This document shows positions 5,681-24,376 of a stretch of 25,007 bases of DNA, one piece after another (position 1 is the first letter of the stretch; each line of letters starts with the position of its first letter). Made by a program: the position numbers and the translations under genes. The stretch is from a virus: positions 1 to 25,007 of the IMG/VR virus record IMGVR_UViG_3300033148_008466. One strand, given 5' to 3'. The notes under the pieces were generated by a model that saw only the letters and a list, made by a program, of their open reading frames with translations, made no database searches and was not told where the DNA came from.

Positions 5681-8179
5681 TTATTTTCCAATTCTTCGAT
5701 TTTCATGCATTTGAACAGCGATTTCTGGGTTATAAATTTTATGCATGAACTTATTACCATCAATTTCTAATGTTATATCATTTTTAAGTGTGAGTCTACC
5801 ATTATTAGCAAATTCAACTTGTAATGGTTTATTTAATAGATTAGCTAAGTCAGCAAATACACTACCGCCTTTTATTTTTGCATTACCAATTGAGGTTACG
5901 GCTTTTTCAACAGCTTCGAAGTCATCTCGACTTCCAGATAATACGGCATGAATACTTTGGAAGGCTGCTCCGATTTTTTCAATACCACCACTATTTCTTT
6001 CCATTCTTTTCAAGGCATTGTTAAATGTAAACATTCCAGCAATACCACCAGCAGCCATTGCTAATGTAATTGCACCAATTCCAGCAGCAACACCAAGTAA
6101 CTCTTTACCTGCACCACCACCACTATTATTTAAATCAGCAAGACCTTCACTCATTTTTCCAATACCCATTGCAGCAATACCAACAGCACCACCAATCATA
6201 AGTATAGCAGCACCAAGAGCCAAGAGCGGAACTGCTGCTGGTGCAGCCACGGCAGCAACAATACCAATTCCTATCGCAGCAAGTGGAAATGTTACTGCTA
6301 ATGTAGTTGCAATTTTTTGTAATGTTTCTGCTTGTTCTGGTGTGAGTTTTGACATTGAATCTGCAAGTTTACTAATACCAACGGCAGCAAGTCCAACACC
6401 TGCTCCCATTCCAACAGCAGCAGCACCAATACCAGCACCAGTACCCAAATTTTGCATCCCCTTACCTTGTGCAGCAGCACCCATTCCAATACCTTTTCGT
6501 TGTTCAAAAAGTCCTGATGTAGTGCCTTTAGAAGATACGGCTTCTGCTATACTACTTGTTCCCTTACTACCAAGTCTACTAAGAACAGCACCCCCTCCTT
6601 TCATAAGACTACCACTTAATAGAGTTGAAGCAGTTTTAAATATCAGAACCGGAGCCATCAATAATCCAGCAGCTTTAACCATTCCCAATATACCTTGGTC
6701 AGCAAATTTTACGAATCTATCAGCAATTTTACCGAGTTTAGGAAGCACTTTTTCATTAATTACCTCCAGTAATGGAAGTAGTGTTGATTTTAGGATTTCA
6801 ATTGTTTTATCGAACGTCTCACTAAATGTTAGTGCTTCTGCTGCACGTTTTTTAAGTAATTCTGATTCACTTAAAAATGCTTTAGCTTGTGTTTTTGTAA
6901 GGTCTCTAATATTAACCAATTCCTTTCCGACTTGAACTTGGAACTTACCTGTTTCTTTATTGTAGATATAAGCACCTTCAACTGCTTCTTTTTCTTCGGC
7001 ACTAAGTCCCAGACCACCCATACTCTGACGTATTTTTTGGATTTCAGCCTGTCTTTCAGTAATTTCTGTTAATGCACTGGCTTCCATACCCATTGATTTA
7101 GCTACGGCAGCAATCCTGTCACGGTCAGCAGGACTAATAAACTTCTCAAATGTGCCGTCAGCCATTTTCCTGAAACTCACAAGACCCTTGGTCATGTCTG
7201 CGATTTTCTCAGCGAGTTTAGCAGGGTCATTACGTGCTGTCCATAACAATTCAAAGGGGTCGGTTTTTGCGAATTCACCACCCATAACTTGCAATTGTGC
7301 TGATAAATCGATTGCGTCCTCAAGATTTCTTGCTATATCAGCAGCACCTAAAACATCGGTTATATCCATTTTAAATTTTTCAGCATACATTGCCATTTCC
7401 GCAAATCCCTTGACACCCTGTTGAAATGTATATGTATTTAATCTCTTGAAATTATCATTAACTGTCTTTAAAACTTTAGTAGTATTCACACCCATTCTTT
7501 CACTGGTATCCATGACTCCTTGAACATAATCCGCAGTTGACCTTGCATCAAATCCCATTAATTCGAATTGAGCACCGAGTTTTGCTGCTTCACCTACATT
7601 AAGTCCAGTACCTCTACCAATTGCCTCGATATCATTCACCATTTCAGTAGTTAAAACACGAGCTTTTCCTGTTTCATCAGCATAGGTTTGCATTATAATA
7701 GCAATATCTTCAATACTTCCACCTAATTTCAACATATCTCCCGCAGACGCTTTAAAACTATCTCGCATTGCTGCTGCTTTCGCACCAGACATGCCAAGAT
7801 TAAGGGTTACAGATTTCATGATTTTATCTTGGTCTTGTAAATATTTCCAACCTGTTTTTAATTGAGAACTGAGTGTTCTGGCGAGGTCATTAGTGATTTT
7901 TCTTGTCTTGACTTGCCTCTCAAGTTGTTTATTAATCTTTTGTTCTTCAGCATTAACTTTTTCAAGTTGAGTATTAAGTTCACGAACAGCAGCCTCAGAA
8001 TCCGTATTGCCTTTAAGAATTTCTTTTCCATGTTCAGCAATTGCTTTTTGGATTTCACTGCTTTGTTGAATAAGTATTCTTCTTTCGGCTTCTTGTTTAT
8101 TAATACCGCTAAGATTAGTACTTTGTTCTCTCAACAAATCATTATATCTTTTTACATCATCTGGTTTAGGTGCTGCCAT
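5681..8179 (-). CDS. tail tape measure protein
   Basis: An 832-residue protein. The first ~115 residues are Gln/Glu/Lys-rich and probably coiled coil. A long helical part with TMP-like spacing follows (for example GRGTGLNVGEAAKLGAQFEL). A hydrophobic segment lies at about 496-515, and a Gly/Ala-rich, membrane-seeking stretch at about 566-716. This architecture, together with the chaperone-type gene pair immediately upstream, identifies a tape measure, which sets tail length and is ejected through the tube at infection. At the usual ~1.5 angstrom per residue it would span a tail of roughly 125 nm (inference). It has its own late motif 19 nt before the ATG and a hairpin after the stop, so it appears to be a single-gene unit. 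The antisense ORFs are shadows of its biased composition. Confidence 0.88.
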   Translation of the reverse strand: MAAPKPDDVKRYNDLLREQSTNLSGINKQEAERRILIQQSSEIQKAIAEHGKEILKGNTDSEAAVRELNTQLEKVNAEEQKINKQLERQVKTRKITNDLARTLSSQLKTGWKYLQDQDKIMKSVTLNLGMSGAKAAAMRDSFKASAGDMLKLGGSIEDIAIIMQTYADETGKARVLTTEMVNDIEAIGRGTGLNVGEAAKLGAQFELMGFDARSTADYVQGVMDTSERMGVNTTKVLKTVNDNFKRLNTYTFQQGVKGFAEMAMYAEKFKMDITDVLGAADIARNLEDAIDLSAQLQVMGGEFAKTDPFELLWTARNDPAKLAEKIADMTKGLVSFRKMADGTFEKFISPADRDRIAAVAKSMGMEASALTEITERQAEIQKIRQSMGGLGLSAEEKEAVEGAYIYNKETGKFQVQVGKELVNIRDLTKTQAKAFLSESELLKKRAAEALTFSETFDKTIEILKSTLLPLLEVINEKVLPKLGKIADRFVKFADQGILGMVKAAGLLMAPVLIFKTASTLLSGSLMKGGGAVLSRLGSKGTSSIAEAVSSKGTTSGLFEQRKGIGMGAAAQGKGMQNLGTGAGIGAAAVGMGAGVGLAAVGISKLADSMSKLTPEQAETLQKIATTLAVTFPLAAIGIGIVAAVAAPAAVPLLALGAAILMIGGAVGIAAMGIGKMSEGLADLNNSGGGAGKELLGVAAGIGAITLAMAAGGIAGMFTFNNALKRMERNSGGIEKIGAAFQSIHAVLSGSRDDFEAVEKAVTSIGNAKIKGGSVFADLANLLNKPLQVEFANNGRLTLKNDITLEIDGNKFMHKIYNPEIAVQMHENRRIGK

Positions 8180-8209: not shown

Positions 8210-8236
8210 AGACCGAGTTTTTTATTATCTCGGTCT
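8210..8236 (-). terminator. hairpin between chaperone ORFs and tape measure
   Basis: The 8-bp perfect stem AGACCGAG / CTCGGTCT has an 11-nt loop and is followed on the minus strand by TTTTGTATTTAT. The TAA of the 58-codon ORF (8227-8225) lies inside the loop, so a ribosome finishing that ORF would melt the hairpin. It could end the chaperone transcript or limit read-through into the tape-measure gene. Confidence 0.6.
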
Positions 8237-8401
8237 GAAGTTATTTTTGTTTTGTGCTCTGTCTTGCATCTTCTCGATTTCTTCATTCTCTTTTTCCAAT
8301 AGAAATAAGAAGTGTCTTCTGCGATATATAGGTAGTTTCTCGATATAATCTGCTTGAAACTTAGCGTGTTTGGTCAATATATATATCTCTTCATCGACCA
8401 T
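8225..8401 (-). CDS. tail assembly chaperone second domain (T-like), 58 codons
   Basis: A short ORF of 58 residues starting MVDEEIYILTKHAKFQADYI, with YIEKLPIYRRRHFLFLLEKE (19-38) and a charged C-terminus. An aromatic/Pro 'LP-Y-RR-FL-LL-E' block is typical of the short downstream partner in tail-chaperone frameshift pairs. The ORF lies in the -1 frame relative to the 322-aa gene. That frame stays open from the slippery T9C4 run at 8440-8428 through this ATG, giving a fused product of about 387 residues (319 + 10 linker + 58). It could instead be translated alone from its ATG, 17 nt after the upstream stop. The position between the gp26-like gene and the tape measure supports the chaperone role. 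Confidence 0.65.
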   Translation of the reverse strand: MVDEEIYILTKHAKFQADYIEKLPIYRRRHFLFLLEKENEEIEKMQDRAQNKNNFRPR

Positions 8402-8418
8402 TTTTTTATAATCACCCG

Positions 8419-9387
8419 CTAAGTGCTGGGGAAAAAAAAATCGATGCCCACAGATAATTGCGCCTTAAATTTATATCCGTCTTTAGCTTTGAATTCATAC
8501 TCCATATCAACATCAGGAGCAACATCAATAATCTTCCTACGAATTGTAAGCGCATCAAGTGCTGGCATTGCATCAATGAATTTACTAATATATGTTCTAT
8601 CGGTTTTGCCCTCAATACTTACAACATGTGATTTTAATTTAAGAGTACTATACTCACTAAATTCCTGACCAAATGCTTCTTTATGTGCTTCGGCTTGATT
8701 AAATAACATGGTTTCTTCACCAGCAGTTAGTAATTTAAACATAACGGTTTTCTTACGCATGGGCAATTTAATGCCGAAATGTCCTTCTCCATCAGGAGTT
8801 TCTGTGATTTTTTTATATCTTAATTTAAGTAAATCTACCTCAGTTTTAAAAATTGCATTTGTCCTTGGGTCAGGCACTTGTACTGTATATGTTGAACCAT
8901 AACTTGAACTACGTAAGAATAATATGATGGCATTCCTATCACCTGCGAGTAACATACTGGCATCAATACCTTTTGTTTTAATCTTTCTGTTTAATAATAT
9001 ATCTAAAACAGTACCATTTTCGATTAAAGAAGGTGTTGTAAGAAGGTCTTCGTCTTTTGAAGTCATGTATTCAACATTGACTTCAGAAATCTTGTTCTTA
9101 TAAAATAAACCCTTTGACGGTAATTTAACTATTTCATATGAAGTCATTAAATCAGGGTCAGTTTCTTTACTCATAGCATTTTCATAATCTTGAGGATTAA
9201 AACTTGCCGATGGTATCGAAGCAGATTGTGCTTCAGGTGCAGAAGGAGTAGGTGCTGGTGCTTCATCAAGCGGTAATGAAGTTACTGATTCTGGGTTTGC
9301 AAGCGTACCTTCTTCACGCATTTGCTTATACTTCTTTAATACATCTCCAATTGGCTCTTTTTTTGGTACTTGATTTTCTTTTTCCAT
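8419..9387 (-). CDS. gp26-like baseplate hub / tail assembly chaperone
   Basis: A 322-residue protein. The Pro/Ala-rich linker at about 38-60 is followed by the conserved body: YEIVKLPSKGLFY (84-96), then an 'LL-R-ik..gid..mLL.gDRNAIIlFLRssSYG' type block at 131-164, and a C-terminus ending VGIDFFFPST. The last block matches the 'VGV-FFWP' ending familiar from T4 gp26-family proteins. In T4, gp26 acts in hub and tape-measure assembly. The protein sits upstream of the tape measure, where lambda-type phages have G/GT. Its last codons contain a U-UUU-UUC slippery run leading in -1 into the 58-codon ORF. The late motif lies 38 nt before the ATG, which is the first in-frame start after it. Confidence 0.78.
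   Translation of the reverse strand: MEKENQVPKKEPIGDVLKKYKQMREEGTLANPESVTSLPLDEAPAPTPSAPEAQSASIPSASFNPQDYENAMSKETDPDLMTSYEIVKLPSKGLFYKNKISEVNVEYMTSKDEDLLTTPSLIENGTVLDILLNRKIKTKGIDASMLLAGDRNAIILFLRSSSYGSTYTVQVPDPRTNAIFKTEVDLLKLRYKKITETPDGEGHFGIKLPMRKKTVMFKLLTAGEETMLFNQAEAHKEAFGQEFSEYSTLKLKSHVVSIEGKTDRTYISKFIDAMPALDALTIRRKIIDVAPDVDMEYEFKAKDGYKFKAQLSVGIDFFFPST
8431..8437 (-). promoter_or_regulatory. candidate -1 ribosomal frameshift site (U UUU UUC)
   Basis: In the zero frame the minus strand reads GAT TTT TTT TTC CCC AGC ACT TAG. The heptamer U-UUU-UUC fits the X-XXY-YYZ rule and lies four codons before the stop. Slipping back one base gives CCC CAG CAC TTA GCG and then runs without a stop into the 58-codon ORF. 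No clear downstream pseudoknot was identified by eye; the hairpin at 8210-8236 is too far away to stimulate. Confidence 0.6.
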
Positions 9388-21856: not shown

Positions 21857-22222
21857 ATGAATAAATCACAACGAATTTATTTAAGCAGTGGTGATACGGG
21901 AAACGATAATCAAGACAAATATATAAGGGTTAAACTCGAACAAGATGTTGAAACCCTTGAGTTTATGTCATTAAGCCTTGGCACTGCCGATGTGTATCAA
22001 AATTTTAATGCAGATTATGGTGTTCTTGTTGGAAGAGTACTTGCTAACGGTGGTATTGGAGTTCCAAATGCAAAAATTAGTATTTTCATCAACTCGAACC
22101 CAAACAGGCATTTGGTAGTTTTCCAATTAAAGAAGAAATTGTTGGAAACTTACCATTTTTGGATGTTTATAAAAAATATTATAAATATACTGCTCTTACA
22201 AATATTGCTGGTGACTACATGA
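21857..22222 (+). CDS. N-terminal fragment of the broken structural protein
   Basis: This fragment has 121 codons from the ATG chosen by the late motif. Residues 1 to about 79 (through NAKISIFIN) are authentic-looking. The last ~40 (from about SNPNRHLVVFQLKK) are out-of-frame translation past the first break. The upstream in-frame ATG at 21794 would add 21 hydrophobic residues resembling a signal peptide, but they precede the promoter motif. Confidence 0.6.
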   Translation: MNKSQRIYLSSGDTGNDNQDKYIRVKLEQDVETLEFMSLSLGTADVYQNFNADYGVLVGRVLANGGIGVPNAKISIFINSNPNRHLVVFQLKKKLLETYHFWMFIKNIINILLLQILLVTT

Positions 22223-22491
22223 TTTTTGGTGTGCCAGTTGGTACACAAGTTGTTCATCTTAGTGTCGATATAACCGATATTGGAAAATATAGTATGAATC
22301 CAGCAGCAATGGTGAGAAATTTAGGTTATCCTGAGAGTCAATTTACTGATAATAATACCAGAATTAAACCAAGCGATGATTTGGGTGATTTACCAAATGT
22401 TGAAACCCAAGAAATAACTGTTGATGTCAGACCATTCTGGGGTGATTTCGAAAATTTCGAAATTGGAATTACTCGTCAAGATTTGGGGTGA
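22081..22491 (+). CDS. middle fragment of the broken structural protein
   Basis: This frame opens after a TAG at 22078-22080 and becomes convincing from about 22108 (AFGSFPIKEEIVGNLPFLDV). The only ATG is at 22159, so the fragment is a continuation, not a separate gene. It contains the second half of the beta sandwich and ends LG-stop, inside the second copy of the 46-bp repeat. Confidence 0.5.
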   Translation, partial: YFHQLEPKQAFGSFPIKEEIVGNLPFLDVYKKYYKYTALTNIAGDYMIFGVPVGTQVVHLSVDITDIGKYSMNPAAMVRNLGYPESQFTDNNTRIKPSDDLGDLPNVETQEITVDVRPFWGDFENFEIGITRQDLG

Positions 22492-23920
22492 TTTCGAAAA
22501 TTTCGAAATTGGAATTACTCGTCAAGATTTCAGGGTTAGAGCGACCCTTGTGAATACTTTTATTCTTTTTGGTACTGCATTTACTGATAGTCAAGAAGCA
22601 CTACGTGGTTATGATTGGGATGATGCGGAAGAAATTAGGGATTACTATCGTGTATACCCAAATGATAAGGTTGATGAAAGTATTAATGATTATTATACAA
22701 TCGGAATGGGGTCGAAAAGAATTGGTGAAATAACGGAAAAAGTATACACATATCCACCAGAAATTAGTGATGTTGATATTGATGCAGGAAACGTAGCTGA
22801 TGATGGAAGTGATATGATTTTAGTTGACCCCAGCAATTATTCAATATTTAAACGAAATGGTGATTTTGTTTTCATCATTAATTGTAATAGAGATAAAATA
22901 CTAACAAATGATTTTGGTGACGAAGTTTCTACTAATTGGGATAATCTGAATGGTGTCTTTACAAAATTCAGGGGGTTTATCACCCTCGAAATAACATCAA
23001 CTGAATTATCAATGAGTGGTCGTGGTAAATTAAGACGAGAGAAAACACAAATCGAACCATATAGAATCAAATTAAAATTTCCACAACACGCAGCAAGCGC
23101 ACAAGGTTTTACCTATCAGAATGATTCAAAAACTGTTGCTTGGAGAAAACAACATGCAACTTTTGAGACTGGTAAATTTTATAGTGTCTCAAGATTTCAT
23201 GGAATAACATTTAATAATATTCATAAAGATTATCAAAATTTTGACCCAATGCAAGCTGGTCCGTTTTTCAGAAAATTTAGTAGCGACCAAGGTGAATGGG
23301 TTAATTATTTAGAAAAAGGGTCAAAAAATAATGTTGGTGTTATTCTCACTGAGGATATTCAGGGCACAATTAATAATTTTGCAGAATTCCCAAGTAATAG
23401 AACTGCTGGAACAAATCGTTTTGGTGCTAACTGGATGAATTTTGCTATATATCTACCACAATTAGGTAAAATGATTGATATTCAAGGCGGGAGTGACCGT
23501 GTGAAGGGTGTGTTAACGGCAGATTATTTTCATCCTCAATGGGAAGATGAAGTTAATTGGAATAAATATTTTTTGTTTGGTAATAGTATGCCTCTTGCTG
23601 CTGGTATGGTTAATACAGAAGGATTTGCACGTTCTGACTTGCATTGGACTGATATTATTGAAGTACCCCTTGATGATATAATTAGTATTAATAGTCATCC
23701 ATCGAAAGGATTTACAAGCACAGAACTCACTGGATTAGCAAATACTAATTATCGTAACGGTACTAATATTCCTACGGGTTGGACTGCTGCATGTCCATAT
23801 AGTGGTGGAAAAGTGAATGGTGTTCCAAGTGGTGGTGTTGATTCCAAATATTATTTCTATAAAGGATTTGATGCTGCAAACGTATTTGAATATATTTTTG
23901 AATTAGGTCTGGTAACATAA
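22421..23920 (+). CDS. C-terminal fragment of the broken structural protein
   Basis: The frame is open for 499 codons, but about the first 21 are a shifted reading of the region up to and including repeat copy 1. True sequence resumes at WGDFENFEIGITRQD in copy 2 and continues FRVRATLVNTFILFG. Later parts (YFHPQWEDEVNWNKYFLFGN, TEGFARSDLHWTDIIEVPLD) are well formed and look like a virion protein. It ends at a strong bidirectional terminator. Specific fold and T4 equivalent are not recognised. Confidence 0.65.
   Translation: MMSDHSGVISKISKLELLVKIWGDFENFEIGITRQDFRVRATLVNTFILFGTAFTDSQEALRGYDWDDAEEIRDYYRVYPNDKVDESINDYYTIGMGSKRIGEITEKVYTYPPEISDVDIDAGNVADDGSDMILVDPSNYSIFKRNGDFVFIINCNRDKILTNDFGDEVSTNWDNLNGVFTKFRGFITLEITSTELSMSGRGKLRREKTQIEPYRIKLKFPQHAASAQGFTYQNDSKTVAWRKQHATFETGKFYSVSRFHGITFNNIHKDYQNFDPMQAGPFFRKFSSDQGEWVNYLEKGSKNNVGVILTEDIQGTINNFAEFPSNRTAGTNRFGANWMNFAIYLPQLGKMIDIQGGSDRVKGVLTADYFHPQWEDEVNWNKYFLFGNSMPLAAGMVNTEGFARSDLHWTDIIEVPLDDIISINSHPSKGFTSTELTGLANTNYRNGTNIPTGWTAACPYSGGKVNGVPSGGVDSKYYFYKGFDAANVFEYIFELGLVT
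22438..22529 (+). repeat. exact 46-bp tandem duplication causing a frameshift
   Basis: Copies at 22438-22483 and 22484-22529 are identical, and the match runs one base further. Because 46 is 1 modulo 3, the duplication shifts the frame; both copies encode WGDFENFEIGITRQD, but in different frames. Each copy contains the 12-bp palindrome AATTTCGAAATT, a plausible slippage or assembly hotspot. Confidence 0.9.
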
Positions 23921-23965: not shown

Positions 23966-24376
23966 TTAATTTATTAAGAGCACGTAAGTGTGGTCATCAT
24001 AATATGGTGTATTTCCCACATCAAATACAATCGTTATTTCATCATTTATAAACGTACCATTTAAATATGGTGTACCATCCATCACATCACCAATAACAAC
24101 ATAATCACCTGTTATGGTCATGTCTTCGAAAGTAAGGTTAGAAGTACTGGTTTCATTTACTAAACTTACAGTCACCTCGTTACCAACAATGTTGATACTG
24201 AGTTTGGGATAGGTGTTACCATTGTAATTATCATCAGTGGCTTCCCAAGTAAGGTTCACCCAATCAGGAAACTGAGTTTCCAAAGTATCAGGAACAATCG
24301 GGTCGTCTTTCTCACAACTACAACTCATAAAAATAATTGTAAGAATAATTACTGCTAAATTTGTTACTTTTTTCAT
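23966..24376 (-). CDS. surface-type lipoprotein carried by the phage
   Basis: A 136-residue protein. MKKVTNLAVIILTIIFMSCS is a lipoprotein signal peptide with candidate lipidated cysteines at 19 or 21. The mature start around C21 reads CEKDDPIVPD; K-D-D just after the cysteine resembles the Bacteroidota lipoprotein export signal for display on the outer surface. The rest (about 40-136) is a small strand-rich domain (LSINIVGNEVTVSLVNETST, YVVIGDVMDGTPYL) of the kind seen in host lipocalin-like or Ig-like lipoproteins. It is the only gene here with a secretion signal, is convergent to the structural gene and closed by a bidirectional terminator, so it behaves as a separate cargo gene. Superinfection exclusion at the cell surface is a plausible but unproven role. 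Confidence 0.75.
   Translation of the reverse strand: MKKVTNLAVIILTIIFMSCSCEKDDPIVPDTLETQFPDWVNLTWEATDDNYNGNTYPKLSINIVGNEVTVSLVNETSTSNLTFEDMTITGDYVVIGDVMDGTPYLNGTFINDEITIVFDVGNTPYYDDHTYVLLIN

Follow-up and report, generated by a model that had tools for sequence, protein, structure and literature searches.

The tail assembly chaperone (TAC) gene described here very probably yields a short and a long product by programmed -1 ribosomal frameshifting, which is the best reading of the sequence comparisons below. The gene is carried on the minus strand of a 25-kb virus contig from IMG/VR; the whole stretch analysed, 25,007 nt, is termed the window. The short form (TAC-N, gpG-like) consists of a 322 aa open reading frame at positions 8419–9387 on the minus strand, with a TAG stop at 8421–8419.

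The 3′ end of the 322 aa gene reads GAT TTT TTT TTC CCC AGC ACT TAG. Direct inspection of the sequence shows a slippery run (8431–8440, minus strand) of nine T at positions 8440–8432 followed by a C, and within this run are two heptamers, U UUU UUC at 8437–8431 and U UUU UUU at 8440–8434. The -1 frame is open across the slip point and continues as ...DFFFPQHLAGDYKKMVDEEIYILTKHAKFQADYIEKLPIYRRRHFLFLLEKENEEIEKMQDRAQNKNNFRPR*. The -1 frame extension, TAC-C (8225–8431, minus strand; PQHLAGDYKKMVDEEIYILTKHAKFQADYIEKLPIYRRRHFLFLLEKENEEIEKMQDRAQNKNNFRPR), starts with a CCC proline codon at 8431 and ends at a TAA stop at 8227–8225. The 0-frame TAG of the short form (8419–8421) is situated inside the -1 frame Leu-Ala codons TTA GCG. 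A predicted fused product would display the junction peptide DFFFPQHLAGDYK. The -1 frame also carries a 58 aa open reading frame that begins with an ATG (8401–8225, minus strand); this in-frame internal ATG, at 8399–8401, is 17 nt past the 0-frame stop. The initial annotation had described a gene ending in U-UUU-UUC and a stop, with the -1 frame open to 8225, and a fusion of 387 residues. The sequence and coordinates were confirmed, and the fusion length when recomputed is the same (318 + 69 = 387 aa).

The 322 aa open reading frame matches PF12322, the T4 gp26/gp51 family, with an E-value = 4.9e-7 and 30.1 bits against a curated cut-off of 24.5. It also matches phrog_150 (baseplate hub) with an E-value = 2.2e-7, and phrog_150 is matched by 46/46 members. 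Neighboring genes encode a T4-type tube protein (phrog_4542, E-value = 3.9e-26) and a T4-type sheath (PF17482). The tape measure gene, which was initially said to follow directly, is found as an 832 aa open reading frame (5681–8179, minus strand) that starts at 8179, 45 nt past the TAC-C stop, its identity being assigned from position and length. A long open reading frame begins 37–88 nt past the TAC-C stop in 51 of the 54 representative relatives described below, and has about 820–860 aa in those whose locus contains it whole.

Other features of the contig were observed at a distance from this gene. Positions 22438–22530 of the window display a perfect 46 bp tandem duplication within a gene, which breaks its frame and could have arisen recently or during assembly. 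A second frame break is found near positions 22160–22220. A 136 aa open reading frame on the minus strand (23966–24376) shows a lipoprotein-type signal, MSCSCEKDD; this type of signal is common in Bacteroidota and is a hint at the host. A host search of genome contigs found no relative.

An AlphaFold model of the short form (m725499211403; window positions 8422–9387) has a mean pLDDT of 83.5. The two best PDB matches found with VIA-align among 986 chains are 3klu (YqbN), which we take to be a tail assembly chaperone, with Z = 5.7, and 2ob9, an HK97 tail assembly chaperone by its title, with Z = 5.4. Both matches are modest, with Z < 6 (under 8), about 85 residues covered in each and a Foldseek E-value of about 1. 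Each half of the model, residues 65–164 and 200–292, has its own match among the solved chaperones (2ob9 and 3klu), and the halves may represent two related domains.

The window-clade extension taken alone matches no family profile. Ten related contigs of 200–366 kb, which may be incomplete, each contain one PF12322 gene over the cut-off, and the clade profile likewise gives one match per related large contig. A separate long-form gene of the T4 kind was considered and rejected, as none was found in these ten, possibly incomplete, contigs. The conserved site, the frames and the single PF12322 gene support, at the level of sequence, the earlier suggestion of a G/GT-type pair before the tape measure gene.

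A protein scan of IMG/VR yielded 80 related loci, and removal of near-copies left 54 representatives with <95% identity. Every IMG/VR relative that reaches the slip site keeps it, with the same -1 frame and protein. The motif GAY TTT TTT T(T/C)N C, together with a nearby 0-frame stop, is present in 54/54 representatives. It takes the form GAT TTT TTT TTC CC in 50 and GAC TTT TTT TTC CC in two, with TTT TTT TCC and TTT TTT TCT found once each. All 54 have a T-run of 8 or 9 and the heptamer U UUU UUY in phase, and only three occurrences of an in-frame U UUU UUY are found elsewhere in the 54 genes. In agreement with the frameshift first proposed, the 54 representatives keep the slippery run and have the two open reading frames close together.

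The third Phe codon of the run is TTC in 52/52 sequences, compared with 19% (116/613) of Phe codons elsewhere in the genes, because the -1 frame Pro codon forces it. A codon-by-codon analysis was performed on 53 sequences that share the same spacing. All 53 sequences use TTA or CTA for the -1 frame Leu codon that overlaps the 0-frame stop (at another invariant Leu codon, taken as a control, NTA is used in 26/53 only), and the 0-frame stop is therefore always preserved. From the 0-frame stop to the ATG, the mean entropy is 0.27, 0.29 and 0.99 at -1 frame codon positions 1, 2 and 3, a pattern typical of coding sequence, here upstream of any point at which translation could restart. These comparisons indicate that the slip run, the 0-frame stop and the -1 frame are under joint selection, as expected if the short and long products are both needed.

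A candidate stimulatory element is found as a stem-loop (8359–8424, minus strand), which was drawn from single-sequence folds and then counted. Stem S1 pairs positions 8424–8417 with 8366–8359 (8 bp, ACUUAGCG/CGCUAAGU) and is 6 nt past U UUU UUC; it encloses hairpin S2, in which 8400–8392 pair with 8379–8371 (9 bp). The window fold shows z = −2.61 in the stem-loop region. Over 48 sequences, 87.0% of S1/S2 cells are paired compared with at most 45.5% when the structure is slid, and there are 38 double-change cells compared with 18.6 ± 3.4 in shuffles, where S1/S2 was derived from the same sequences on which it was counted and relatedness inflates such counts. RNAalifold on the window clade prefers another fold to S1/S2 and gives no simple conserved hairpin. 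S1 is lost in the five most divergent relatives (L064, L072–L075). The covariation is thus no more than suggestive of a role of S1/S2 as a -1 stimulator. An SD-like stimulator upstream of the site was not found in the window clade, with AGGAG present in 1/54 and GGAG in 2/54.

In the proposed mechanism, most ribosomes would stop at the 0-frame TAG to give the 322 aa short form (TAC-N), and a minority would shift by -1 at the U9 run and translate the 387 aa long form (TAC-NC). The slip would most likely take place on U UUU UUC, helped by the downstream stem-loop. On the model of lambda gpG/gpGT, the expected role of the short form is to coat the tape measure protein, and that of the extension is to recruit subunits of the tail tube. 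We infer the ribosomal nature of the shift, its efficiency and the roles of both products, with the roles and the efficiency taken from lambda.

Both chaperone forms would likewise result from transcriptional slippage, in which RNA polymerase adds one U (or drops two) on the T9 run to give mRNAs that encode the fusion. The T-run is in fact always at least 8 long, longer than a slippery heptamer requires. However, the homologous cyanophage site has six T only and shows the same -1 arrangement, and runs of 8 retain the in-phase U UUU UUY (as GAC TTT TTT TTC or GAT TTT TTT TCY). The covarying structure at a 6 nt spacing also points to the ribosome. Transcriptional slippage is thus an unlikely explanation of the site, but the two mechanisms are not exclusive and it may contribute alongside a ribosomal shift.

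The internal ATG at 8401 is present in 48/53 relatives, and TAATG stop-start overlaps appear at the same junction in K444, RC-2014 and Cygsa01. Two separate proteins could then be formed, with the 58 aa open reading frame re-initiating at the ATG after the 0-frame stop, but this is very improbable. The ATG is 17 nt beyond the stop and is replaced in 5/53 sequences by TTA (twice), GTT, ATA or TTG; it is not universal and is therefore unlikely to be the general start. In addition, the -1 codons upstream of the ATG are under protein-level selection, and the invariant U run would go unexplained. A sequencing or assembly error, where the real run would be ten T and the frames simply fused (the circumstance that the initial annotation had set against its own proposal), finds a possible parallel in the 46 bp duplication elsewhere on the contig but has next to no probability and is rejected in favor of the frameshift, as the run is 8 or 9 T long and the frame offset identical in 54/54 representatives from independent metagenomes, and the 0-frame stop is itself under selection.

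The junction was also compared across the wider family, by representatives and not by a tree. The cyanophage gp26/'51' locus (Kyanoviridae) is similar to the window in showing a -1 extension past U UUU UUC and a downstream hairpin; unlike the window, its six-T site is directly before the stop. The sequence NNT TTT TTC GNN stop is found in 38/38 cyanophage-type representatives (L097–L176). At the end of gp26, 7 nt past U UUU UUC G, there is a conserved hairpin with an RNAalifold value of −7.84 compared with −0.92 ± 1.11 in column shuffles, and 88.9% paired compared with at most 52.5% when slid. S-CAM1 (L259) retains a stem but the stem sequence is different. The isolates S-CAM1, VH7D and Aswh_1 (L264) keep U UUU UUC, and gp26 also ends in U UUU UUC in Vibrio VH7D, Aeromonas phiAS5, Rhizobium IC12 and PA5oct.

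In Sf-FS3 the -1 extension is annotated as a gene of its own, baseplate hub assembly catalyst (gp51); in S-CAM1 it is unannotated. S-CAM1 and Aswh_1 show no ATG near the start of the -1 extension. An ATG is what allows annotation of the cyanophage -1 open reading frame as a gp51 gene in its own right. The cyanophage extension matches phrog_634, as does T4 gp51. The window-clade and cyanophage extensions share a weak similarity (hhalign P = 0.004). The cyanophage site appears from these comparisons to be an independent parallel to the window site.

Extensions in the +1 phase are found in other groups. The 49 immuto-type representatives (L177–L256) have their extension in the +1 phase, at TTT YTN TGG CCT GA; this motif is nearly invariant, with TAC in place of TGG in 1/49, and a +1 slip would be possible on its CUU U and UUU U. 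A +1-phase extension is likewise displayed by SP-15, LIS04, a Streptococcus phage and Mel-JY01, the SP-15-type loci being L082, L083, L085, L087 and L088. Scans with gp26 of Rhizobium IC12 and of SP-15 gave one near-identical locus each. The Ackermannviridae, K444 and Cygsa01 show no clean heptamer, and several loci display a TAATG stop-start overlap at the junction, namely Cygsa01, K444 and Dickeya RC-2014 (among L093, L260, L262 and L263). The junction of Salmonella PhiSH19 has neither TAATG nor a clean heptamer. Tentatively, and with slightly less than an even chance, production of the long form may have been switched repeatedly within one orthologous family, the forms being the -1 shift on U8–9 (window clade) or on U UUU UUC with a hairpin (cyanophages), the +1 phase, the overlap and the T4 duplication. 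It may also be that neither the +1 groups nor the conserved RNA stems have been reported before.

A 2016 review lists T4 as the exception to the tail-chaperone frameshift (PMC5009743). Vladimirov, Gautam & Davidson (2022; Virology 566:9–15) identified T4-like TAC genes, as cited in PMC10274946, PMC10885494 and PMC12846349. According to the PRFect paper, a short gene stands alongside a longer, fused one in some T4-like phages (PMC10274946), and another report gives poly-T slippery sequences as known -1 signals in T4-like TAC-N genes (PMC12846349). As cited there, the T4-like TACs of Vladimirov et al. resemble the window in having a gp26-family short form, a C-terminally extended long form and poly-T sites. 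The initial annotation had considered such a frameshift to lie outside the standard description of gp26 in T4. This holds for T4 itself, where genes 26 and 51 are separate, but not for T4-like phages, whose TACs and poly-T TAC-N sites were described by Vladimirov et al., as cited in two papers (PMC10274946, PMC12846349).

Thus a -1 TAC frameshift of this sort is already described in other T4-like phages. The uncultured clade of the window, its U8–9 run and its stem-loop may lie outside the 2022 study, and these, together with the RNA stems and the +1 groups of the wider family, may be new. The findings add an abundant uncultured lineage, whose contigs measure up to 366 kb, to those with the conserved tail-chaperone frameshift, and locate its site exactly. 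Where annotation pipelines split off or omit the extension, it should be joined to the short-form gene.

T4 gp26 and gp51 both match PF12322, with E-values of 8.8e-64 and 3.9e-52, and match one another by hhalign (99.0). With the cyanophage fusion, T4 gp26 gives an hhalign probability of 98.4 and the match stops at the slip site; T4 gp51 gives 98.3 in an end-to-end alignment that covers nearly all of the fusion, including the extension. The window clade gives no hhalign match to T4 gp26 or gp51 alone, and the link to T4 therefore runs through PF12322, phrog_150 and the cyanophages. A sequence search of solved structures gave nothing relevant for T4 gp26 or gp51. As in the window, the two T4 proteins are of the same family, with gp51 carrying the extension and gp26 lacking it. 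However, T4 has two genes on opposite strands, whereas the window has one gene with an out-of-frame extension. The study of Vladimirov et al. reportedly finds frameshifting kept in several T4-like groups, with T4 using genes 26 and 51. The present comparison supports T4 gp26 and gp51, which are essential yet poorly understood, as a short and long chaperone. Leiman et al. 2010 (PMC3004832) class both with the hub assembly chaperones and report that the particle does not contain gp51.

The gpG/gpGT pair of lambda, like the pair predicted for the window, consists of a short and a -1 extended chaperone, and the tape measure gene comes immediately afterwards. The slippery heptamer of lambda differs from that of the window, and the short form of the window is about twice as long. 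The likeness to lambda lies in the arrangement of the genes, and sequence similarity is not expected.
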